A DNA stretch of 64,000 nucleotides, from NCBI GenBank assembly GCA_022841365.1, contig JALHRP010000006.1:50320-114319 (forward strand). Reading direction: 5' to 3'. Both the position numbers and the translations under genes were made by a program. The stretch's first letter is position 1, and each line of letters begins with the position of its first letter. The notes beneath the pieces are model-generated. The model saw nothing but the letters and a program-made list of their open reading frames with translations. It did not search any database and was not told the DNA's origin. Source of the stretch: Chitinophagaceae bacterium (GTDB taxonomy: Bacteria > Bacteroidota > Bacteroidia > Chitinophagales > Chitinophagaceae). Positions 17,293 to 56,948 of the stretch are shown here, one piece after another.

Positions 17293-19860
17293 TTATTTTG
17301 CTTCCAATACTTGTGTAATACGATCATTCAAATCCTGCAGATGCAGTCTGGTCATCGTATCAGTTGTTGTTGGTATAGCTGCACGGATATCATTACGCAG
17401 TGTACGCAATGTTCCTCTTAAGATTGAATACACATCCGTGTTCTTTACATTCAATGATGGTGCAACCTGGATATTGAACGTGATGGTGCCAAAACTTAAT
17501 GGCGCTGCACCACCTGGTAACAGTGTAATAATGCGCTCAACAAACATTTTCTGCAAATTACGACGGTATACATCGGTTGCTTTCTTTGTATACAGTTCGC
17601 TGAAGATCATCTTACGCAGATCGTCCATTACTTCTGTTGCTTTGTAAGCATTATTACCAACTGTTGATTCCATCAGAAACAACTTACTCATGGTGTTGGC
17701 ACTGATGATTCGGTTGAGAATAGATTCCTGACGGTTGCCAATTACAATTTGCGGATTTGCACCGGTACGGCTGAAGATATCATTGTTGATCAACCATGTT
17801 GGTGTAGCAAACAACTGCTGACCAATAAAATTCATGGCATCTTTTTGCACAGCCTTTGGTGTAAATTCATAAATACCACCATCCTGCTCAACAACCTTTG
17901 GTGTTTCATAAATACCGCCAATGTTCTTTACAACATGTCCAAGGTAACGGCCATACTGACCAACAACCTGGTTGTACATTTCATCTAAGCCATCATAATA
18001 TTCATTGGGTTCTTTGGTCCATGAAATTAAGTTGGGTACAATACGTTGCAGGTTTTTTATACCATAGTTACCTGCCTTCATAGCATCGTTACCAAGATCT
18101 TCACTTTGTGAACGTGGATCATCCGGATTTTGTTCTGTACCAAACCAGAGACGTTTATTTTTTAAACGCTCAGTAGTCAGTTTTTGTAATGCAGGAACTT
18201 CATCAGCAGCTGTTTTAAATTCAGGCATCCAGCGGTAACCCCATTCAATAGCCCACTTATCATAATCGCCGATACGTGCAAACAATCCGCTTCTTGAAAT
18301 ATTATCTTCCGGTTGTGCTACATAATTAAAACGTGCATAGTCCATAATAGATGGTGTATGACCGTTTGCTTCAACCCATTTTTTATTGCGTAAACTGTCA
18401 ACAGGAACAGAAGAAGATGATCCGAAGTTATGACGGAGACCAAGGGTATGACCTACTTCGTGTGATGATACAAAACGGATGAGCTCGCCCATCAATGCAT
18501 CATCAAACATCATGGTTCTTGCACCGGGATCAACTGCAGCAGTTTGTATAAAATACCAGTTGCGTAATAATTTCATTACGTTATGATACCAGTTGATATG
18601 ACTTTCTAAAATTTCTCCGCTGCGTGGATCATGTACGTTTGGTCCGCTTGCATTTTGTGTTTCTGATGGTTTGTACACAATAGCACTGTAACGGGCATCT
18701 TCAATACTCCAGGTGCTGTCTTCTTTTGGAGTAGGTGCCATTTTTCCAACGATGGCATTTTTAAATCCTGCTTTTTCAAACGCAACCTGCCAGTCGGTAA
18801 CACCCTGCATTAAATAAGGAACCCATTTTTTTGGTGTAGCAGGATCAATGTAATAGATGATTTGTTTTTTAGGTTCAACCAGTTCGCCACGTTTGTATTT
18901 TTCAATGTCTTCATCTTTGGGCTCCAGTTTCCAGCGCACAGCCATTTCAACATTTTTTACGCCTTGCGGATTGGCATCAAAATCGGTATAGCTTCTGGCA
19001 AAGAAACCAACACGTGGATCAAAATATCTTGCTTTGGCTGGTGTTTTAGGAAGCAGCAACATGGAGCTGTTTAACTCCAGTGTATAAGCACCACCTGAAG
19101 GAGCCGCAAAGGGGTTGATGGCTCCACCCGGTGCACCGCCACGTGAATACGTTTTTGTGGTTTTAATTTCGATGTTGAGCGGATAAGAGCGAACGGTCTG
19201 GATAAATGAACGGTCCGACTGTAAAGCACCCAGCTGTAAGCTTGATTTTGCGCCGGTATTAAAAAACAGCACATCGTTATCACCGGAAATATAATCGGTT
19301 AATTCAATAACAGTAGAGTTGGTATTGGTAACTGAATCTTTTCCGAAAGCCCTTACATCAAATGCCTGCATGATGGGTAAGGTGTTTGAGTTCATTACAG
19401 CTTTGTACATACCGTCGGTATCAGTTGCACGTTGATCAAACGACACTCTTTTCAGAAAGATTTTGTTGTTAGGTCCTTTGTCAAAACGGATGACATTATT
19501 GTTGATGATATCACCTGCATAACCGCTGAAGCCATTACTCAATCCTGCAGCCGATTTAGAGATACGGCTCACAATCAGAATTTCTCTGCCAATTAATGAA
19601 TCTGGTACTTCAAAGTACCATTTGTCATCCACACGGTGTACCTTAAACAAGCCTTCGTCGGTACGTGCTTTATCGGTAATCACTTCTTTATAAGGTCTTG
19701 GCGTTGAACGACCCGGTATGGAGGGCGGTGCTCCTGTTGGAGCCTGTGGAAGAGCGGGACCTCCTGTTTGGGGTGTACCCGGTCTGTTTTGAGAGCCGGC
19801 AGTAAACCCTGCACTCACAAATAAAATGATTGCCAGCGGTCGCAGCATTTTTTTTCTCAT
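17293..19860 (-). CDS. zinc-dependent metalloprotease, DUF5117/DUF4953 type
   Basis: The protein has about 855 residues and a signal peptide beginning MRKKMLRPLAIILF; this ATG (19858-19860) is preferred to one 21 codons upstream because it starts the signal sequence directly. A Pro/Gly-rich linker follows. The zinc-binding motif HEVGHTLGLRH is near residues 467-477, with the downstream SIMDYARFNY resembling a Met-turn. Large exported metalloproteases of this layout are common in Bacteroidetes, often annotated with DUF5117, DUF5118 and DUF4953. The substrate is unknown. The prophage is inserted in its upstream region. Confidence 0.88.
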   Translation of the reverse strand: MRKKMLRPLAIILFVSAGFTAGSQNRPGTPQTGGPALPQAPTGAPPSIPGRSTPRPYKEVITDKARTDEGLFKVHRVDDKWYFEVPDSLIGREILIVSRISKSAAGLSNGFSGYAGDIINNNVIRFDKGPNNKIFLKRVSFDQRATDTDGMYKAVMNSNTLPIMQAFDVRAFGKDSVTNTNSTVIELTDYISGDNDVLFFNTGAKSSLQLGALQSDRSFIQTVRSYPLNIEIKTTKTYSRGGAPGGAINPFAAPSGGAYTLELNSSMLLLPKTPAKARYFDPRVGFFARSYTDFDANPQGVKNVEMAVRWKLEPKDEDIEKYKRGELVEPKKQIIYYIDPATPKKWVPYLMQGVTDWQVAFEKAGFKNAIVGKMAPTPKEDSTWSIEDARYSAIVYKPSETQNASGPNVHDPRSGEILESHINWYHNVMKLLRNWYFIQTAAVDPGARTMMFDDALMGELIRFVSSHEVGHTLGLRHNFGSSSSVPVDSLRNKKWVEANGHTPSIMDYARFNYVAQPEDNISRSGLFARIGDYDKWAIEWGYRWMPEFKTAADEVPALQKLTTERLKNKRLWFGTEQNPDDPRSQSEDLGNDAMKAGNYGIKNLQRIVPNLISWTKEPNEYYDGLDEMYNQVVGQYGRYLGHVVKNIGGIYETPKVVEQDGGIYEFTPKAVQKDAMNFIGQQLFATPTWLINNDIFSRTGANPQIVIGNRQESILNRIISANTMSKLFLMESTVGNNAYKATEVMDDLRKMIFSELYTKKATDVYRRNLQKMFVERIITLLPGGAAPLSFGTITFNIQVAPSLNVKNTDVYSILRGTLRTLRNDIRAAIPTTTDTMTRLHLQDLNDRITQVLEAK

Positions 19861-19998
19861 ACTTTGATTGGTTTTATTAAACGGATGAAGATAAACGGAA
19901 TCACTGAAACCCTGATTAAACAAGGATGAAATTAAAAATGTTAAGGATAAACGGCAGATTGTGATAAACGGTTGATACGGCGGTCAACGCAAACCTTT

Positions 19999-20297: not shown

Positions 20298-21101
20298 TTA
20301 CTTCAATGGATAGTTTGCTGTAAGCACTTCTACTTTCTTTTTCCGGTAGCCGCTTTTTGCATTAACGGAAACCTGCTGCTCAACGTCCCACTGATTCCAG
20401 CCATATCGCTTCAAATACTTGTCCAAGACTTCGCTGTGATAGCTGCTCAGTAGAAACTTCCCTTTCATTTCTGCGAGCGTTTTAAGCAGCATTTCGAAGT
20501 CCTCCACACTGTAACCATCATAGTGGCCCATGTTGCTGTTAAAGTAGGGAGGATCGGCATAAACGAAAGATTCAGGCCCGTCAGCACGTTTAATGATGTA
20601 CAAGGCATCAGCGCACTCGATCTGCGCATGCTGGAGCCGCCAGGCCAACTCTTCGGTAAACTGTTCCCGTTTGTTGCTGATCTTCTTTGTAGTCGTATCA
20701 TCAGCCTTATCAAAGCCCCATGATCCGTCAAGCATGGCACTAAAACTTTGTGTGCTTAAAACCCACACAGCCCACGCCCGGCGAACCTCATCATGCAAAT
20801 GCGGTTTATTGTAAATAACCCAGGCATCATCATGAGCCAGCCTACTGTGAAGTGTAGTGCGCACCAACGAACTCAGATCGTGGAAACGGTTGCGACAAAC
20901 TTTGTAGAAGTTAATAAGCTCCGCATTGGTATCATTGATGATTTCAACGTTGCTTTGCGGTTTTGCGAAGAAAATAGCTGCGCCGCCAACAAATGGCTCA
21001 CAGTACAAATTGTGAGTTGGCATGAACTTTAATACAGTTGATGCCAACTTTTGCTTGCCTCCATAATAGCTGATTGGAGTACGTAGAAAAATTTGTTTCA
21101 T
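20298..21101 (-). CDS. DNA adenine (N6) methyltransferase, D12/Dam class
   Basis: The protein has 267 aa. Motif I for S-adenosylmethionine appears as PISYYGGKQKL (about residues 8-18) and CEPFVGGAAIFF (about 39-50). The catalytic DPPYFN is near residue 183. It is the last gene of the late operon, next to the prophage right end, the position where Mu carries its mom DNA-modification gene; a role in protecting phage DNA from restriction is inferred. The ATG at 21101 is preferred over an in-frame TTG at 21131. Confidence 0.92.
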   Translation of the reverse strand: MKQIFLRTPISYYGGKQKLASTVLKFMPTHNLYCEPFVGGAAIFFAKPQSNVEIINDTNAELINFYKVCRNRFHDLSSLVRTTLHSRLAHDDAWVIYNKPHLHDEVRRAWAVWVLSTQSFSAMLDGSWGFDKADDTTTKKISNKREQFTEELAWRLQHAQIECADALYIIKRADGPESFVYADPPYFNSNMGHYDGYSVEDFEMLLKTLAEMKGKFLLSSYHSEVLDKYLKRYGWNQWDVEQQVSVNAKSGYRKKKVEVLTANYPLK

Positions 21102-21137
21102 GTTATTGAGTTTTGCTGCCCGCTTACTCAATACATT

Positions 21138-47298: not shown

Positions 47299-47745
47299 TT
47301 ACTTTTTATTGAGTGAATGAATAAATGACGAATATACCTGTTCAAATTGCGTTACAAGTTTAGGCAACTCTTTGTATTTATACCAATCCAATTTCTTTTT
47401 CAGGTAGCTGCGGCCTTTGCACCATTCATCCAGGCGCTTCATATCAACCACCCGGCCCCCTCCGGCTCCCCCTGTAGGGGGAGAGCGCCTCGGCACAGTC
47501 CAACCCATTTCATGGCAGTAGTAGAAGATTTTGCCTTTCATCTTTTCAATGGCAGCTCTGTTTGGATCGTTCTGTTGTAAGTGCTGCAGCATGAGTGTTG
47601 CCTCTTCATCATACAAATCTTTTGTACTGCTGCACCGGCCCAGGCTAAAGCCCTCCACCATCATTGCCTTTGTATCTTTATCAATACCATATTGGCTTAC
47701 AAGCGTGTTGATGGCAATGAGTTTATTTTTGCTGATGGGATTCAT
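47299..47745 (-). CDS. GemA-like (Mu gp16/DUF1018) protein with repeat-encoded insert
   Basis: The protein has 148 residues. The N-terminal KNKLIAINTLVSQYGIDKDT, the SLGRCSSTKDLYDEEATLML segment and a C-terminal KRLDEWCKGRSYLKKKLDWY match the GemA pattern of Mu-like phages, a host-regulating early protein. About 13 residues, RRSPPTGGAGGGR near 86-98, are encoded by a GC-rich palindrome (47453-47485) of the type seen in host intergenic gaps, inserted in frame. The gene overlaps its upstream neighbour by 23 bases. Confidence 0.7.
   Translation of the reverse strand: MNPISKNKLIAINTLVSQYGIDKDTKAMMVEGFSLGRCSSTKDLYDEEATLMLQHLQQNDPNRAAIEKMKGKIFYYCHEMGWTVPRRSPPTGGAGGGRVVDMKRLDEWCKGRSYLKKKLDWYKYKELPKLVTQFEQVYSSFIHSLNKK
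47453..47485. repeat. GC-rich palindromic repeat inside the GemA-like gene
   Basis: GGCCCCCTCCGGCTCCCCC followed by TGTA and GGGGGAGAG is the same design as the hairpins near 1890, 4180 and 28780. It lies within a reading frame that stays open through it. Confidence 0.7.
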
Positions 47746-47974: not shown

Positions 47975-48397
47975 TTATTGCCATTCATTTTCCCAATACT
48001 CCTTCTTGAGGTATGTTTCGGGATCAGCTTTTTTTCTCCACTCATTAGCTTTCAGGAATTTATTGTACTCAGCAACACCTAACCACGCTGCAACCTTCTT
48101 TGATATACTAAGCCTGTTCCATAAATCTTCACAACGCTTGCGGTTGATCTTGTGGTTGTATTCATTCCAAAACATATCGAATGATATTTCAAACGCAGCT
48201 TCAACAATCGTCACATCTGCACTAAACGAAGTTTCTATTGCTTCAACATGCACAGGCACTGAGTGCTTAAAATGCGCTAATAAAGCCTTGGTTAAATCGC
48301 TCTGCCTGGTGTTGATTGTTATAAGATCGCCGTCCTGGTTGTACAGCAGCTCTGCCGTACCTGCAAACTTTTTTGATGATATAAGAAACCTTCTCAT
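47975..48397 (-). CDS. phage protein with a replication-protein-like C-terminus
   Basis: The protein has 140 residues. The C-terminal half has the pattern FWNEYNHKINRKRCEDLWNR followed by helices and YLKKEYWENEWQ. It resembles the end of phage replication initiator or DnaT-like proteins (W-x-x-Y-x-x-K, then K-x-P-x-x-Y-L-x-x-x-x-W). The N-terminal half is a small beta domain. Role uncertain; its ATGA start overlaps the gene upstream. Confidence 0.5.
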   Translation of the reverse strand: MRRFLISSKKFAGTAELLYNQDGDLITINTRQSDLTKALLAHFKHSVPVHVEAIETSFSADVTIVEAAFEISFDMFWNEYNHKINRKRCEDLWNRLSISKKVAAWLGVAEYNKFLKANEWRKKADPETYLKKEYWENEWQ

Positions 48398-48690
48398 AGT
48401 TCTGTGTTTTCGAGTTCTTCAATTACCTGCTCTCTCGTTCTGTTGCTGTAAACAGCAGGAGGCCTTTCGTATGTCTGAAACTTCTTTGCTTCAGCTTGCT
48501 CATGATCATCGCCGTCATTTTCTTTTTTCAATTGACGTAAGCCGCCGCCATGCAATGCCTCTGCCTGGTTGTACATTTCTGTTGCTTCCTCTTCGTTCAA
48601 CTGAAAGAATGCCATCATGTCTTTTTTTTTCCACTTGCCTTTGAGCAACTTCCAAAACGCACGTAGTTCTCTTTCTGTGAATGTTCTCAT
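48394..48690 (-). CDS. small charged hypothetical protein
   Basis: This 98-residue, highly charged protein is helical at the N-terminus (RELRAFWKLLKGKWKKKDMM) and disordered at the C-terminus. ATGA overlaps at both ends place it in an operon with the exported barrel-like protein and the replication-like protein. Confidence 0.5.
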   Translation of the reverse strand: MRTFTERELRAFWKLLKGKWKKKDMMAFFQLNEEEATEMYNQAEALHGGGLRQLKKENDGDDHEQAEAKKFQTYERPPAVYSNRTREQVIEELENTEL

Positions 48691-49190
48691 TGCTTTTGAT
48701 TTACGAGGTTATAACTCATGCCAACACCGCCGCCAACAAAGCCTGGTGTATAATGCGCAGTAATAAACATGCTACCACTGTCGAACTTCATTGCATGTAA
48801 TTGAAATCCTGTAGTAAAGCGGTTATAATTGCGACTCTTATCATCTACACTGTACATGATGCGAGTACCGGCAACATATACATGAAGCCACTCAGTAATG
48901 TTATAACCAATACGAGTTTGAAAAAGGACAGGCTGTGTATTGTTTGCAATTGCATTGAAACCAACACCAGCGGAAATTTTTTTAAACCGATACCCGGTTA
49001 TCCATTCGGCGCTAAAGAAACCGTTGGTACTGTTGGCAGATGCATAAGTAAATATGCCTGATTCCGTTGTTTGTTGCGGTTGGTAACATTGTGCATTCCC
49101 TTTTTTGCCTGTTAACAGCATCATAATGATTAATGCAAGTACCAACATAATGTAAACTTCTACAGGTGTTTGCTTGATTGTTTTTTTCAT
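48687..49190 (-). CDS. exported beta-barrel-like protein (possible outer membrane moron)
   Basis: The protein has 167 residues. A hydrophobic N-terminal helix (about 12-30) ends near GNAQ, a likely signal cleavage site. The rest is alternating aromatic/polar strands with Gly turns (FSAEWITGYRFKKISAGVGF, TRIGYNITEWLHVYVAG, SMFITAHYTPGFVGGGVGMSY), suggesting an 8-strand outer-membrane barrel. A phage gene of this sort could change the lysogen surface. The ATG at 49190 fits the signal; an upstream start would overlap the next gene. Confidence 0.55.
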   Translation of the reverse strand: MKKTIKQTPVEVYIMLVLALIIMMLLTGKKGNAQCYQPQQTTESGIFTYASANSTNGFFSAEWITGYRFKKISAGVGFNAIANNTQPVLFQTRIGYNITEWLHVYVAGTRIMYSVDDKSRNYNRFTTGFQLHAMKFDSGSMFITAHYTPGFVGGGVGMSYNLVNQKQ

Positions 49191-49195
49191 ACTGA

Positions 49196-49378
49196 TTATT
49201 TTTTTCGTTTTGCCTGGTTGTACTCTTCCTCTTTCATTGAAGTGAGATGCCATCCGTTACATTGTTTGCAGTAATATTTTCGCTTTGGTATGCGGTGGCG
49301 TTTATTGCCCCGCCGCTTTACCATGCTCAATACATGATCTGCTTTTTCTTTTGTTAGTATGGATTTGCTGCAACTCAT
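49196..49378 (-). CDS. small zinc-ribbon-like protein
   Basis: This is a 60-residue, very basic protein. The motif YYCKQCNGWHLTS near the C-terminus has a CxxC and a following His, a short zinc-binding type. The ATG at 49378 (MSCSKS) is preferred over one seven codons upstream. Confidence 0.55.
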   Translation of the reverse strand: MSCSKSILTKEKADHVLSMVKRRGNKRHRIPKRKYYCKQCNGWHLTSMKEEEYNQAKRKK

Positions 49379-49379
49379 T

Positions 49380-49631
49380 TTATTTTTTTGAAAGATCAAC
49401 CCTGCGGTAATGTTGTTGCCATAACAGTTTTGCAGTGGCGCTGCTTTCTTTTCTTACTTTGGTTTCGCTCCATTCAGGATGTTGAACATGATAATGTTCG
49501 TGCAGGAGGTAAAGCATGTGGCGATAACCTTTCAACCGTGTGTCAAGCTCAATCGTTCTTTTCTCATCGCTTGCAAGCCCCCAGGCTTTATGCCTTCCTA
49601 ATTTTCGATGTATTACTTTGCTGCTGTTCAT
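49380..49631 (-). CDS. minimal HExxH protein
   Basis: The protein has 83 residues. LLHEHYHVQHPEWSETK carries an HExxH signature (about residues 42-46) in a helix, as in minimal zinc metallopeptidases of the SprT or IrrE kind, but the third zinc ligand is not obvious. It overlaps its upstream neighbour by 44 bases and lies two bases from the zinc-ribbon-like gene. Enzyme activity is not proven by sequence. Confidence 0.5.
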   Translation of the reverse strand: MNSSKVIHRKLGRHKAWGLASDEKRTIELDTRLKGYRHMLYLLHEHYHVQHPEWSETKVRKESSATAKLLWQQHYRRVDLSKK

Positions 49632-49920
49632 TAACCTTTTTGTTTTTGTTGTACACGATTATTTTTTCAGGCACCTTCCACCCAAATCGGCGGTATATTT
49701 TTTCCACGATCAATGGGGCAAACACACGGATGTATAACACGTTCTCAAGAGGAATATCAGTTAGTGGAACTGTACCCTGGAATTTTAAGCGGTTGGTAAA
49801 CTTTACTCGTACATATTGCCTTCCCTTACTTTTTACATGCTTGATGAACACCGCAGGCATGTGAGTGCGGCTATGTACAATCACCTTCTTTTTAAAATAC
49901 TTTTTTATCGTCTGTATCAT
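49588..49920 (-). CDS. basic hypothetical protein just downstream of the DGR template
   Basis: This 110-residue, strongly basic protein is mostly beta (VKFTNRLKFQGTVPLTDIPLENVLYIRVF in part). It is the first gene after the template repeat, where DGRs usually encode the reverse transcriptase or accessory Avd. It is far too short for an RT and is not an Avd-like helical bundle by appearance. Nucleic-acid binding is possible from charge alone. Confidence 0.5.
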   Translation of the reverse strand: MIQTIKKYFKKKVIVHSRTHMPAVFIKHVKSKGRQYVRVKFTNRLKFQGTVPLTDIPLENVLYIRVFAPLIVEKIYRRFGWKVPEKIIVYNKNKKVNEQQQSNTSKIRKA

Positions 49921-49937
49921 GTGAATAAGAATGAAAG

Positions 49938-49970
49938 AGGGTCGTTTTCGACATTGCTACCAACGACCCT
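49938..49970. other. hairpin downstream of the DGR template repeat
   Basis: AGGGTCGTT (49938-49946) and AACGACCCT (49962-49970) form a perfect 9-bp stem with a 15-base loop. In a template RNA read on the - strand it lies about 50 bases past the template repeat, in the region that is structured in known DGR template RNAs. Confidence 0.55.
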
Positions 49971-50021
49971 TATTTGTGTTGTTGTTTTTTGCACTGATGG
50001 CAGGGTTTGCATTACAGTAAG

Positions 50022-50102
50022 TTTAGCATAGGTGGGAGCTGACATTCGAATTCGAGTTCCAGTTGTCGTAGTCGTTGTACGCTGGGCCGGAGGGCGAAGA
50101 CA
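50022..50102 (-). repeat. DGR template repeat (TR), non-coding
   Basis: These 81 bases align without gaps to 50208-50288 and 50580-50660 inside the two genes upstream. Read on the - strand, every mismatch to either copy is at an adenine of this copy; about 45 other positions in the mismatch-containing core are identical in all three. The gene frame is interrupted here by TAA, so it is not a working gene copy. Codon examples, template versus gene copies: AAC versus TGC and CGC; AAT versus CTT and GTT; AAC versus GAC and CAC. This is the adenine-specific hallmark of DGR templates. Confidence 0.9.
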
Positions 50103-50133
50103 AACCGCTCTGTAATGCACAACCACTTTCGTA

Positions 50134-50499
50134 CTATTGCAGCACGAAGTATTGTCGATACAATTTTTGGAATTGCTTACCTGCATACTCCGCTAACTCT
50201 TCGCTTTTAAAGCAAAGGCGGGAGCCGACATTCGAAAGCGAGCACCAGTCGTCGCAGACGTCGTACGCCGGGCCGGAGGGCGAAGACATGTCAAACCACG
50301 GATAATACTTCCATTCGCTACTATCTTTCCAGTTCGGTTTCCAACCATCGTTCAATGCTTCGGTGATGATTACAAGTTTTGCATGTGCAACTGTTGCATC
50401 TTGGTGATGCTTTGGCATAGTGCCAACCTTTGGTAATACTTTTTCCGGATCGTAGCCTAACTTTTTGCAGGCTTGTTCGAACGTTTTAATTTTAGCCAT
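50134..50499 (-). CDS. DGR variable protein, copy A
   Basis: The protein has 121 residues and is paralogous to the adjacent upstream gene. The N-terminal helical part starts MAKIKTFEQACKKLGYDPEK. YYPWFDMSSPSGPAY (about 65-80) leads into the variable segment (DVCDDWCSLSN), followed by the fixed VGSRLCFKSEELAEYAGKQF. There is no signal, membrane or fibre motif, so a cytoplasmic role is likely. The family is common in Bacteroidetes mobile DNA in my recollection, without known function. The template repeat starts 32 bases after its stop. Confidence 0.82.
   Translation of the reverse strand: MAKIKTFEQACKKLGYDPEKVLPKVGTMPKHHQDATVAHAKLVIITEALNDGWKPNWKDSSEWKYYPWFDMSSPSGPAYDVCDDWCSLSNVGSRLCFKSEELAEYAGKQFQKLYRQYFVLQ
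50208..50288 (-). repeat. DGR variable repeat (VR) in copy A
   Basis: This is the 81-base segment of gene 50134-50499 that matches the template. It differs from the template at 14 positions of the core, all template adenines (for example TAC to TGC, AAC to TGC, AAT to CTT). It differs from the copy B repeat at six bases, again all at template adenines. Confidence 0.9.
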
Positions 50500-50508
50500 G
50501 TGAGTTGT

Positions 50509-50940
50509 TTAGAGAGTTAAAAAATCAGTGTAGATTGAAATGAATTGCTTACCTGCATACTCCGCTAATTCCCTGCTTTTAAAGCAAAGGCGGGAGCCGA
50601 CAAACGAAACCGAGCGCCAGTGGTCGCAGTCGTCGTACGCCGGGCCGGAGGGCGAAGACATGTCAAACCACGGATAATACTTGTACTGGCTTTTGTTTGA
50701 CCAATCTGGTGTCCATCCTTCATTCAATGCACGTACAATAATTACCAGCTTTGCGAAGGCTGCTACTGCTGCGATTGATCTTGTCGCATCATCATTGTGG
50801 CCAAAATCAACCGTCATTGAAATTTCTTTCGGATAGATGCCTAATACTTCGCATGCATCTTCGAAGGTTTTTACTCGCTCCATGATGTTGCCACTTTGCG
50901 GAGTGGACTTTGTGAACAGTTGTGCTGTTAATGTTTCCAT
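50509..50940 (-). CDS. DGR variable protein, copy B
   Basis: The protein has 143 residues, or 124 if it starts at the ATG at 50883 (MERVKTFEDACEVLGI), which aligns with the start of copy A. The ATG at 50940 lies three bases from the upstream stop. Layout equals copy A: helical N-terminus, YYPWFDMSSPSGPAY, variable segment (DDCDHWRSVSF), VGSRLCFKSRELAEYAGKQF. The last part is nearly identical to copy A in DNA, indicating recent duplication or shared retrohoming. Confidence 0.82.
   Translation of the reverse strand: METLTAQLFTKSTPQSGNIMERVKTFEDACEVLGIYPKEISMTVDFGHNDDATRSIAAVAAFAKLVIIVRALNEGWTPDWSNKSQYKYYPWFDMSSPSGPAYDDCDHWRSVSFVGSRLCFKSRELAEYAGKQFISIYTDFLTL
50580..50660 (-). repeat. DGR variable repeat (VR) in copy B
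   Basis: This is the 81-base segment of gene 50509-50940. It differs from the template at about 15 core positions, all template adenines, including AAC to CGC, AAT to GTT and AAT to TTT. The last 22 bases before the 3' boundary are the same in both VRs but differ from the template, as expected for an initiation-of-mutagenic-homing segment. Confidence 0.9.
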
Positions 50941-53695: not shown

Positions 53696-54087
53696 GCTTT
53701 CTGTATTGACTTGTTAACGTTGCTGATCATACCTGCGTAAGCCAGTTCCAGGATCACGCCGTTGGGACGGATGCAGCTTGCCAATGTGTTTGGATTGTGC
53801 AGTTCGTGATAGAGTTGTGTGCGCAGTTTAAGGCTGAGGCTTTCTACATGACCAACACAAAACTGTTCGTCACGCATTGCCCAATGGTTGCGCCACCATG
53901 TCCAGTATATCCGTTGCTCAAGCAACTGATCAATACCAACCGGATCATGCGGGATATATGCCTGCAAGTATTGGCGACCGTACTTGAATTGCAGATCAGC
54001 ATACTGCTGTTCAGTAATGCCGAGCAGTTCACACACACGGCGCTTAAACTCTTCAAATTGTTTTCTACGGTTTACTACCCGGCTCAT
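53692..54087 (-). CDS. hypothetical early-region protein after MuB
   Basis: The protein has 131 residues and a basic helical start (RRKQFEEFKRRVCELLGITE). The central YIPHDPVGIDQLLEQRIYW and an aromatic WTWWRNHWAMRDEQF segment follow. Overlaps with both neighbours place it in the transposition operon. No family recognised. Confidence 0.55.
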   Translation of the reverse strand: MSRVVNRRKQFEEFKRRVCELLGITEQQYADLQFKYGRQYLQAYIPHDPVGIDQLLEQRIYWTWWRNHWAMRDEQFCVGHVESLSLKLRTQLYHELHNPNTLASCIRPNGVILELAYAGMISNVNKSIQKA

Positions 54088-54965
54088 TAGCTTACTTTTT
54101 TGAGTGATGTGTTGCTTTGAGATACAATTCGGCGTAAGTAGAAGCGATCAATGCGTCGCAGATCGCCACCATACTCATTGTAAATCCGGTTGATCTCGAT
54201 TTCCTCGGTGATTCCGTTCGCTTCGCAGAGTTGAACGACCTCATTTTTGCTTGTACCATTCAGTGCAATAAACTTGCGACCAATGCGACTCTTGATTTCC
54301 TGGAAACCCTTGCGGTTTCGGTTAATACCTTTCTCAATGCGGTTTGCAATGTTGTCGGTGCTTGTCCATACAATGCCGCACATGCCATGCAGTTTATTGT
54401 AAAGCGTAATAAAGAAGTAAAGCACTTCGTCTTTCAGCTTATCAACTTCATCCAGGATAATAAGCGGGTGATCTTGCTTGCGCAATGTGCTTACCACTTC
54501 GTCCATCATTTCGTATACGTTCAATCCGCTGGCATTACGGCCCATGCTGCGCAGCAGCTCGGCGAGGAAGTATTTTTTATTCCAGTACTCGGCACACTCC
54601 ATGTAATACACGTTGCGGCCCTTCATCATATCGGTATAGTAACGGGCAGCGTATGTTTTTCCGCTACCGGCCGCACCTACCACCGCAAAGGTTTCTCCAT
54701 GATCCTGTGCTATGCTGAAGTACAGCATCAGCGTACTGAAGTCCTGCGTTTCAACCAGCTTGCTGCGGCGTTCGTTCCAGCCAATCTGTTTGCCAACGTT
54801 GCGCCACATTGCATCGCTGATGCCGTTCCACTTGTTTTGCAGAATGTTAATTACGGTTGCCTCGCTTACTCCTTCGAGTAAATTGATGGCTTGCTTTTGA
54901 CTGCTGAAACCTTGCACGTATGCCTGCAGCAGTTTCGTGATTTGTTGTTTCTGTTCGAGATTCAT
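54087..54965 (-). CDS. MuB-type transposition ATPase
   Basis: The protein has 292 residues. An N-terminal HTH-like region (about 10-60) is followed by an AAA+ core with Walker A GAAGSGKT (about residue 100) and Walker B LIILDEVD (about 168), then a sensor region and a C-terminal helical domain. MuB binds target DNA, stimulates the transposase and gives target immunity. It follows the transposase gene by 60 bases. Confidence 0.88.
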   Translation of the reverse strand: MNLEQKQQITKLLQAYVQGFSSQKQAINLLEGVSEATVINILQNKWNGISDAMWRNVGKQIGWNERRSKLVETQDFSTLMLYFSIAQDHGETFAVVGAAGSGKTYAARYYTDMMKGRNVYYMECAEYWNKKYFLAELLRSMGRNASGLNVYEMMDEVVSTLRKQDHPLIILDEVDKLKDEVLYFFITLYNKLHGMCGIVWTSTDNIANRIEKGINRNRKGFQEIKSRIGRKFIALNGTSKNEVVQLCEANGITEEIEINRIYNEYGGDLRRIDRFYLRRIVSQSNTSLKKVS

Positions 54966-55025
54966 AGCTTTGTGTTTACTTGTTATTAATGGGCCGTAAG
55001 TGTTAGAGCACTGCGGTCTTTTTGT

Positions 55026-56948
55026 TTACATCTGATCCAGCGGATTGTATTCACCAAGCTGTGCTTGCTGGTACACCAGCTCGGCGTTTTGTTTCAGTTC
55101 CTTTGTTAATACCTGCGCCTGCAGTAAGCTGTTGGCATCAATAGCGTGGCGCTCCAATACATCAACACGGTTGTTCTTGCTGTCGGCAATGCGCTGCACG
55201 TGGTTCTTTTTCATTAACAGCAAGTGGTTAAGGCGGCTGCGTTCACCATCTTTGTAATCGGCAATGGCACTGCTCATTTTTTCAAACTCACGGGCCACAA
55301 ATCGAAGGCTTGCACCATCAGTTACCAGTACACGGCTGTAGTCGTATGGGTCGTAAGTAACCTTCACCTTCTTACCTACATTTTGCAGGTACAAATCATC
55401 CGGCACATCGTACACAAACTGCTGTCCGTCGATGGTTACTTTAATGCCTCCGTTGGTAATGGTGTGGCTGTGTGTATGTTCAACTCCAAACAGGTGCAGC
55501 ATACGTGCATCGCTTATTTGGTGCTGGCGGCTCAGTTCGCTGTTGTTAAATGCGGTGATCCATTGTTGCTGGCGGGTAACACCTGTTTTGCGGTCGGGCA
55601 AATGGCGCAGGCGGTTTACAAAATCTTCAATGTATTGCAAGCCTTCGTTTACAGTGGGGAAGTTGCGTTTTTGCAGCTCCAGGTTATCACGGTTAATGCG
55701 GCTTTGGCTGGTAATGTTGGTGCCGGCATAGTTGGGGTACATCTTCAGCATCTGATGCCATACGTTACCAAACGCCTGCTCAATGTACTTGGCTCGTGCA
55801 ACCTTAGCGGTGGCCGGTGTGTAAATGCTCATGCTGCTGTAGAAATCTTTTAAGGCAGCAAGGCCCCAACGGTCACTTTGTATTTGGTTGCTCAGGTACC
55901 AGCCTCCGGTTAACTCTTTAATATGGTACATGGCATCGAGGTAAGCGGCTTTAATCAAATCGGTGGTAACCGTTTCGCCGTAGGCATAACCAAGGATGTA
56001 ATCGTTATGTGCATCCATTACAAAAATCAATTTGAAACGGAAGTAGTGGTTTGTTTTGCCTTTGCGCTCCTCACGGAAATACAAGTCGAGGTCGTTATCA
56101 TCACTGCCCACCAACAGCAGCGGAGCAGTTGGGCGGTTACGCAGGATCACTTTACCGTAGGTATTGTACCATGCTGCGTTTCCTTCACGTGCGCCCTGCA
56201 GCTGGTAGTAATTGGTGCGGCGGTGTACACCTACCGTTGCCGGGTCAATGGGCTTATAACCGAGCGGTACCACCTTCTTATTATATGCCTGTGCAATAAT
56301 AAAATCGTCATGTTGGTTAGGGTGGGCAATCAGTTCCAGTAAAAGGCTGCTGGTAAATTCATCGTTTACTTTTGCCGCCAGCTTGTTACCAAAGCGCCAG
56401 TCAATAAGCGATTCGTAACCCTTCTCTTGGTAGTCGGCCATTGCTTTGCGCAGTCGCTTGTAGCTGGTTGGCAGATCAATGTTTTCGGTTTTAATGAGGG
56501 AGTAGATGTGCGTATAAAACTCATCCAGCTTCAGGTTCAACTGCTTCTTTACAATAGCTGCATTTTTATTGATGAGTGCCAGCATGTTCAACCATGCTGC
56601 GGCTTTGCTGTACTTACTAACGTGCTCAACCGGCAGGCTTTTACCATCATCGTAGCGATAGCTCAGGAAATACTCTTCGGCTTTGTGATCCGGCTTAACC
56701 ATTGCTTTAATTGGCTCACGGGCTACATAGTCGTATGGGTTGCCGAAGAACTTTTCAATTGCGTCCTTGTACCTGCGGCCTAATTTTTCGTATGGGTAGA
56801 TGTTCAGTTTTGCATTTGAAGGGTCTTTAGTATACGGCAGTGTTGTATAGCCATGCCTGCAACTACTGTAAATCGTGTTTATATTAAAACCAGCCGCAAC
56901 CAAGTCTGATGTTTCTATAAACAATTCATTATCGTTAAGTATCTTCAT
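55026..56948 (-). CDS. MuA-type DDE transposase
   Basis: The protein has 640 residues. N-terminal DNA-binding helices are followed by an RNase H-like core with candidate catalytic residues in GSDDNDLDLYF (about 280), QSDRWGLAAL (about 358) and YIEQAFGNVW (about 388). A Mu-type C-terminal beta barrel (IDGQQFVYDVPDDLYLQNVG in part) and a final helical region for MuB contact follow. It carries out both prophage integration and replicative transposition. Confidence 0.9.
   Translation of the reverse strand: MKILNDNELFIETSDLVAAGFNINTIYSSCRHGYTTLPYTKDPSNAKLNIYPYEKLGRRYKDAIEKFFGNPYDYVAREPIKAMVKPDHKAEEYFLSYRYDDGKSLPVEHVSKYSKAAAWLNMLALINKNAAIVKKQLNLKLDEFYTHIYSLIKTENIDLPTSYKRLRKAMADYQEKGYESLIDWRFGNKLAAKVNDEFTSSLLLELIAHPNQHDDFIIAQAYNKKVVPLGYKPIDPATVGVHRRTNYYQLQGAREGNAAWYNTYGKVILRNRPTAPLLLVGSDDNDLDLYFREERKGKTNHYFRFKLIFVMDAHNDYILGYAYGETVTTDLIKAAYLDAMYHIKELTGGWYLSNQIQSDRWGLAALKDFYSSMSIYTPATAKVARAKYIEQAFGNVWHQMLKMYPNYAGTNITSQSRINRDNLELQKRNFPTVNEGLQYIEDFVNRLRHLPDRKTGVTRQQQWITAFNNSELSRQHQISDARMLHLFGVEHTHSHTITNGGIKVTIDGQQFVYDVPDDLYLQNVGKKVKVTYDPYDYSRVLVTDGASLRFVAREFEKMSSAIADYKDGERSRLNHLLLMKKNHVQRIADSKNNRVDVLERHAIDANSLLQAQVLTKELKQNAELVYQQAQLGEYNPLDQM

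Follow-up and report, generated by a model that had tools for sequence, protein, structure and literature searches.

Our analysis of a 64,000-nucleotide (nt) stretch of a Chitinophagaceae bacterium genome (contig JALHRP010000006.1 of assembly GCA_022841365.1, positions 50,320 to 114,319, here referred to as the window) revealed the template repeat (TR) and two variable repeats (VRs) of a likely diversity-generating retroelement (DGR) within a Mu-like prophage whose host belongs to the Bacteroidota. Since no reverse transcriptase (RT) gene was found and the likely priming box of the cassette's RNA is gone, the cassette is likely frozen, a reading that we consider well ahead of even chances. The three copies of 81 nt lie on the negative strand and comprise the TR (50022..50102, 21 A of 81), VR-A within target gene A (50208..50288) and VR-B within target gene B (50580..50660). 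A previous reading made from the letters alone (the sequence-only reading) had reported these coordinates and lengths and a gap-free alignment with all differences at template adenines, and realignment bore this out. When mismatches in the ungapped 81-nt alignments were listed by template base, VR-A departed from the TR at 14 positions (7 A>G, 6 A>T and 1 A>C) and VR-B at 15 (7 A>G, 6 A>T and 2 A>C), each of them a TR adenine, and the same held for all six differences between VR-A and VR-B. The chance of such A-only mismatches was 6.4 × 10−11 for VR-A, 6.7 × 10−12 for VR-B and 1.7 × 10−4 for the differences between the two VRs. The pairing of a TR with VRs inside target genes and with mismatches at TR adenines, by which DGRs are recognized, was thus found in 14/14 and 15/15 positions. 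Within the first 60 nt (15 A), the 9 mismatches of VR-A and the 10 of VR-B were likewise all at A (chance of 3.4 × 10−7 and 4.0 × 10−8).

Although the earlier counts of 14 and 15 "core" mismatches were correct, five of them per VR look fixed rather than mutagenic. These 3′-most mismatches (50040, 50033, 50029, 50024 and 50023) carry the same letters in VR-A and VR-B and fall in codons for the segment V-G-S-R-L-C-F, which was invariant in 14/14 members of alignment A1 (both window targets included) and retained its G, R and L at at least 90% in a wider 74-member alignment. In the DGR of Bordetella phage BPP-1, a sequence for the initiation of mutagenic homing (IMH) in the VR is matched by IMH* in the TR, and a spacer separates the TR from the RT (PMC12875486). 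By analogy, the five differences common to both VRs appear to be fixed between VR and TR in the manner of IMH and IMH*, a further hallmark of DGRs. Read in the VR frame, the TR gives SSPSGPAYNDYDNWNSNSNVSSHLC followed by a stop, and VR-A gives SSPSGPAYDVCDDWCSLSNVGSRLCF. In the codon alignment of targets A and B, third positions were identical in 27/27 codons within the VR and in 54% of 69 codons before and 50% of 22 codons after it. A single template was thus probably the source that overwrote this stretch in both genes; paralogues as diverged as these two would not be expected to retain one such identical island without copying.

To place the cassette among its relatives, we collected 80 viral loci (the best 80 out of 117 related stretches), 79 bacterial genome loci (from the best 80 of 96; Bacteroidota, with a few titled Ignavibacteria or Chlorobi) and 15 family-level genome regions; among 394 genomes of the host family, 15 contained a relative, the window's own included. 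A hidden Markov model (HMM) built from 20 relatives' RTs matched 73/80 viral and 46/79 genome loci, 119/120 of its matches lay no more than 700 nt past the last target or TR match, and PF00078 was found in 47/50 viral records tested (50 of the 80 viral loci). The usual order was target, target, TR, spacer and RT on one strand, and exactly two full targets were present in 102/118 RT-bearing cassettes, or in 96/110 of those away from a contig edge (redundant set). To be accepted, a TR/VR pair had to show 4 or more A mismatches and no more than 6 non-A ones in 60 nt. The 188 pairs accepted in 98 RT-bearing loci showed changes at 68.5% of A, 0.7% of C, 2.2% of G and 2.0% of T, with a mean of 0.64 non-A mismatches per pair. 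Loci without an RT hit yielded 19 pairs from 10 loci (A 73.4%, C 1.5%, G 1.9% and T 3.8%), including those of L208, which looks spurious, and of L175, which lies at a contig end; when these two loci were left out, 17 pairs remained (A 73.1%, C 0.8%, G 1.5% and T 2.9%). One TR/VR pair of L190 had 5 non-A mismatches.

The TR and its spacer appear to belong to one structured RNA. The structure common to 82 TR-plus-spacer sequences (window included) consists of a stem, P1, that closes round the TR, and of two spacer hairpins. In the window, the 5′ arm of P1 (TGCATTACAG, 50110..50119) and its 3′ arm (CTGTAATGCA, 50008..50017) enclose the TR in the predicted RNA, hairpin 1 lies at 49985..50004 and hairpin 2 (GGGTCGTTGGTAGC..TCGAAAACGACCC, 49939..49969) is intact, all on the negative strand. 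Over the 82 sequences P1 covaries, with two-sided changes in 7/7 of its pairs, and across the whole structure 95.4% of cells pair, compared with 72.4% in shuffles and 30-45% on sliding partners. The spacer 3′ of the TR (49917..50023, negative strand) matched the spacer covariance model R1 over its full length at 62.5 bits, a match expected by construction since R1 was built from 51 of the 82 sequences, the window among them; it was the one R1 match in the window's genome, and a scan of the window at Rfam gathering thresholds gave 0 matches. Among the 159 loci of viral and genome origin, of which 158 (all but L053) were searched, R1 had 125 full matches: 119/119 RT-bearing loci carried one, among them two with broken RTs (a fragment in L217 and two pieces in L223), and 119/125 loci with a full match had an RT hit. 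No RT hit was obtained in 40/159 loci, and 34 of these 40 were also without a complete R1 match, although 7 of the 34 end no more than 1.5 kb past the last target, L053 was unsearched by R1, and the R1 match of L175 runs to the contig end. With 34/159 loci lacking both, relatives without TR RNA and RT are common, chiefly among the more distant genome loci, which speaks against a neatly uniform family. When R1 was run under stricter filters on 395 genomes from the phylum, 5 matches were obtained, the window's own included; because the other 4/4 have an RT hit, R1-positive cassettes without an RT look rare. Three R1-positive RT cassettes (L240-L242 in G811, G705 and G834) have no recognisable member of the target family, and R1 thus seems to reach other DGRs too.

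The window's RNA departs from this pattern at its 3′ side. A structured spacer 3′ of the TR is present, but its terminal box is absent: similarity to the relatives extends through hairpin 2 and then ends, and the nearly invariant AAAGCAAAGG box that precedes the RT in the relatives was not found in the window, where the best match reached 8/10 at 120 nt further on, a score equalled in 161/1000 shuffles. In addition, the innermost pair of hairpin 1 is C-U in the window alone and C-G in the other 81/82 sequences. In BPP-1, a spacer adenine primes synthesis of complementary DNA (cDNA) at the TR 3′ end (PMC12875486), and by analogy the lost box would likely be the priming element of the template RNA, an inference with mixed support. 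At least 8 nt of pairing between the box and the VR 3′ end was possible in 124/169 VR genes, compared with 3/169 for shuffled boxes, while 45/169 fell short; as both the box and the VR 3′ end are conserved, this is not covariation, and the loci with non-consensus boxes, which scored 6.88 with their own box, 5.97 with other loci's boxes and 7.72 with the consensus box, speak against it. Among the VR 3′ ends of the family (n = 167), 91 end in CTTTGCTT and 76 deviate. For pairing with the TR 3′ end, permutation gave a negative result both in general (own value of 6.08 against 5.95 when permuted, with 192/2000 permutations reaching the own value) and on deviant loci (1014/5000). A count of two columns of box and TR gave G/C 38, G/T 3, A/C 2 and A/T 6, with one T/C omitted (Fisher 1.5 × 10−4; 50/81 loci usable, 31 skipped); the two A/C cases (L137 and L150) look by eye like misparsed boxes. 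The pairing of the terminal box is accordingly presented as a lead. In six loci (L012, L013, L134, L139, L144 and L172), the box deviates from the consensus in a way that seems to parallel the TR 3′ end; the formal tests are mixed.

The RT itself had been overlooked as a missing part in the sequence-only reading. The HMM of the relatives' RTs matched none of the window's open reading frames (ORFs) of at least 30 amino acids (aa) at E ≤ 10, remnants included, no RT was detected by PF00078 at E ≤ 0.001 in the 4.56-Mb draft genome, and the RT of L001 used as a query against that genome gave a best E value of 0.335. As an RT of the DGR kind was found neither in the element nor in the draft genome, we filed the locus as a DGR remnant and not as a complete DGR. 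The slot that holds the AAAGCAAAGG box and the RT gene in relatives (49588..49938, negative strand) contains instead a 110-aa ORF of unknown function (49588-49920). Relative to L001, which is the closest relative by target B and has the same gene order with an RT (604.6 bits) in the slot, four further ORFs (48394-48690, 48687-49253, 49196-49399 and 49380-49631, together 48394..49631, negative strand) bring the number in the window's slot to five, followed by a shared gene at 47975-48397. In L001, the RT lies between the TR and the homologue of 47975-48397, and a homologue of 47299-47745 is also found downstream. The 110-aa ORF had 9 matching proteins, its own included, and is probably a real gene since the 8 others share 56-88% identity; relatives of this ORF (sequence and alignment queries) and of 47975-48397 were not found among viral contigs. 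Collectively, the earlier proposal of a DGR stood as to origin, given the A-only pattern, the 188 TR/VR pairs and the homogenised third positions, and fell as to a complete working DGR, given the absent RT and 3′ box.

Our best reading is that the window contains a genuine DGR of a Mu-like Bacteroidota prophage that was recently stripped of its RT and is now frozen. By analogy with BPP-1, an RNA comprising the TR inside stem P1 and the structured spacer would have been copied by a reverse transcriptase that made errors at adenines, and the resulting cDNA would then have overwritten the homologous stretch in both neighbouring targets. A deletion or replacement starting just past hairpin 2 may recently have removed the box and the RT, before ordinary drift could part the TR from its VRs, and mutagenesis would presently not take place. 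The recent date is suggested by the 0 non-A mismatches in both VRs. Several points weigh against this reading. The loss is dated through those 0 non-A differences, and support for the lost box as the priming element is weak. With the genome assembled to draft level in 326 contigs, an RT could lie on an unassembled piece or in other cells of the population; in Thiohalocapsa PB-PSB1, structural variants with an intact RT existed (PMC10907252). Moreover, as three other genomes hold a related RT besides their RT-less cassette, the absence of an RT beside the TR is no proof of inactivity.

That last point leads to the alternative that the cassette is non-autonomous but alive, its TR RNA being read in trans by the RT of another phage or element that diversifies both targets. 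Six other loci (L179, L185, L190, L203, L204 and L207) have a full R1 spacer RNA and no RT hit, and two more (L184 and L216) kept the TR or part of it with neither an R1 match nor an RT hit. PF00078 was absent from the whole genomes of L179, L184, L190 and L216 and was found elsewhere in the genomes of L185 (one), L203 (two), L204 (three) and L207 (one), the last of which reads as group-II-intron-like from its score and size only. In the genomes of L185, L203 and L204, one other RT scores as a member of the cassette family (594.8, 523.6 and 519.5 bits), each with its own R1 RNA. Aquimarina algiphila carries the RT-less L185 and, on another contig, the RT-bearing L232 (594.8 bits); the two loci of this isolate share 201 nt over TR and spacer at 99.5% identity, after which the L232 copy continues into its RT. 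The second cassette of the L203 genome is taken to lie on L203's own contig (both 57,982 nt), with the RNAs at about 10.4 and 45.8 kb. The L203 and L204 phages are about 76% identical in two cassette-holding segments and 70-81% over longer matches, and their TRs differ at five sites. Each of their 4 VRs matches its own TR at all non-A positions but the last two of 75 compared, the sites of difference between the two TRs included, and each genome has a related RT elsewhere, accompanied by a TR RNA of its own; either an RT acts in trans or both phages lost their RT lately and independently. Action in trans has also been proposed for Thiohalocapsa (PMC10907252). For the window, however, we regard this alternative as unlikely: no RT was found in its genome, and its RNA is without the terminal box and cannot form the innermost hairpin-1 pair, whereas the box or a one-letter variant of it is still present in L179, L185, L203, L204 and L207, and L190, whose genome is without a PF00078 match, has lost the box too.

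An ordinary and active DGR whose RT exists in the phage or host and was lost from the assembly is less probable still. The division of the draft into 326 contigs and the RT hit in 119/125 loci with a full R1 match speak for it, but the contig is unbroken through the TR and spacer into tightly packed ORFs, of which the 110-aa ORF is probably a real gene (8 homologues), and both the loss of the box and the hairpin lesion lie in the assembled sequence itself. That the third copy is a decayed gene copy whose A pattern arose from directional mutation towards A is hardly credible: it does sit where a further truncated paralogue could lie, but the comparative TR/VR data contradict this, as non-A TR bases match the VR at 97.8-99.3% (188 pairs, each accepted with 6 non-A mismatches or fewer), comparable adenine-rich TR cores lie next to RT genes elsewhere, enclosed by a covarying stem, and opposite template A the VRs show G, T and C, a mixture that one kind of deamination alone does not yield.

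Both targets of the presumably frozen cassette belong to one protein family. Target A (50134..50499, negative strand, 121 aa) has an internal VR, with about 24 constant aa C-terminal to it, and target B (50509..50940, negative strand) encodes 143 aa; both fall into PHROG 11581 (unknown function), and neither matched a Pfam model. An AlphaFold2 model of target B from a 74-sequence alignment (predicted local distance difference test, pLDDT, of 85.0; predicted template modelling score, pTM, of 0.81) comprises helices, a beta-hairpin (87-93 and 101-108) and a C-terminal helix pair, with the second hairpin strand and the next loop falling in the VR at lower confidence. Among solved structures the model had no good match, and the 7 viral matches with E ≤ 0.001 were all uncharacterised phage proteins. 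Hydropathy of at least 1.6 over 19 residues was reached by 4/329 family sequences, with peaks of 1.82 in target B and 0.63 in target A. The sequence-only reading had considered targets of this type in this layout new, but the type extends beyond the window: a profile search gave at least 7508 homologues (7997 candidates scored), and 96/110 RT-bearing cassettes away from a contig edge have exactly two such targets (redundant set). No Pfam domains were found among the 120 target homologues listed. Proteins P0001-P0006 (247-286 aa) consist of two target domains fused in tandem, which on sequence grounds hints at a possible joint function of the two targets; the predicted fold of P0001 was poor (pLDDT 45.7). 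At least three target-family matches per locus, some of them short pieces or TR, were present in L005, L166, L185 and L192, the last two being without an RT hit. LoVEphage has a target homologue, with no R1 match in the stretch read.

The target protein of BPP-1 has a C-type lectin fold with a C-terminal VR. The BPP-1 system shares with the window the A-directed TR/VR differences, the 3′ IMH/IMH* junction and a structured spacer (PMC12875486), but it diversifies a tail-fibre protein and has avd and brt, whereas the window has two small proteins with an internal VR, no RT found and no avd identified, though no search was aimed at avd. Hankyphage is likewise a Mu-like transposable Bacteroidota phage with a DGR, whose 117-bp repeats mismatch at 14 adenine positions; in contrast to the window's pair of 121 and 143 aa with no RT found, it has an RT, and its VR (residues 2188-2225) sits in a large ORF that bears a C-type lectin domain (PMC6199706). 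Thiohalocapsa PB-PSB1 also has incomplete DGR loci, their diversification being put down to trans action or to events predating the disruption, but these are bacterial, with putative conflict-system targets (PMC10907252), whereas the window holds a phage cassette with its own TR RNA and without RT and box. In Bacteroides phage BT-TP2, the TR and a small target-family protein match over 119 nt, and each of their 14 mismatches is at A; unlike in the window, the RT (gp45) is present and a second match of this TR lies in the C-terminal part of gp44 (16 mismatches, again only at A), so that one TR matches two unlike targets over 119 nt with 0 non-A mismatches (L244:3681-3799 and L245:121-239). The gp44 protein (2262 aa, annotated as hypothetical) is probably a tail protein by its size and position, and the small member is unannotated, spans the record's ends and weakly matches (33%) a protein annotated as a tail protein in phage Versailles.

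Parts of this picture have precedents. Targets in isolates without RT and TR were described for Treponema, and two targets per cassette are already known at about 13% (cited in PMC10743442). The survey of Roux et al., the largest that we came across, described 24 main target clusters and began from RT genes no more than 1 kb from an imperfect repeat (PMC8144416), and could therefore not see RT-less cassettes; DGRscan reports partial systems, but only via similarity to known TRs (PMC4159848). Neither this target family nor phage cassettes that lack an RT but keep an intact template RNA were the subject of any paper that we found, most subscription journals and supplements being outside the scope of the search. 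The template RNA, with its strong covariation, is searchable on its own and has examples with and without an RT. Aquimarina algiphila, a named isolate, and BT-TP2, with a recorded laboratory host, offer places where use in trans or of two targets is testable, and the small paired targets without a Pfam family raise the question of what a phage diversifies besides its tail. The frozen cassette, if true, would be a natural snapshot of DGRs dying or coming to depend on another virus. More boldly, and as a tentative idea that we think more doubtful than sound, Bacteroidota phages may carry a class of non-autonomous DGR cassettes, with hypervariable targets and a complete covarying template RNA but no RT, that depend for their rewriting on an RT supplied in trans from another cassette or phage, much as short interspersed nuclear elements borrow the enzymes of long ones. 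The window would then represent a late stage whose RNA is already losing trans competence, and the targets, paired small soluble proteins near the transposition genes in part of the phages, might act inside the cell, as hypervariable proteins that bind factors of the host or of rival phages, and not as tail tips.

The surrounding prophage is recognisably Mu-like, with a MuB-like ATPase (54087-54965) and a MuA-like transposase (55026-56948) forming the transposition genes (54087..56948, negative strand), a PF09299 match of 22.4 bits (cut-off of 21.7), phrog_310, phrog_296, and tail sheath, tape measure, portal and capsid genes; a repressor, terminase, head protease and baseplate hub were also present. 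With transposition, head and tail genes in place, the prophage as a whole does not look degraded. The three nearest relatives of the transposase found (L224-L226, 36-50% identity) had no VR genes and no RT in the stretch examined, which suggests that the cassette is an accessory module. Within the fetched flank, a MuB-like homologue was present in 22/80 viral loci. A DNA methyltransferase gene (PHROG 56, window 20298-21131) adjoins the prophage tail genes, and a DUF4953/DUF5117 zinc metalloprotease (window 17293-19923) is probably a host gene beyond the prophage.
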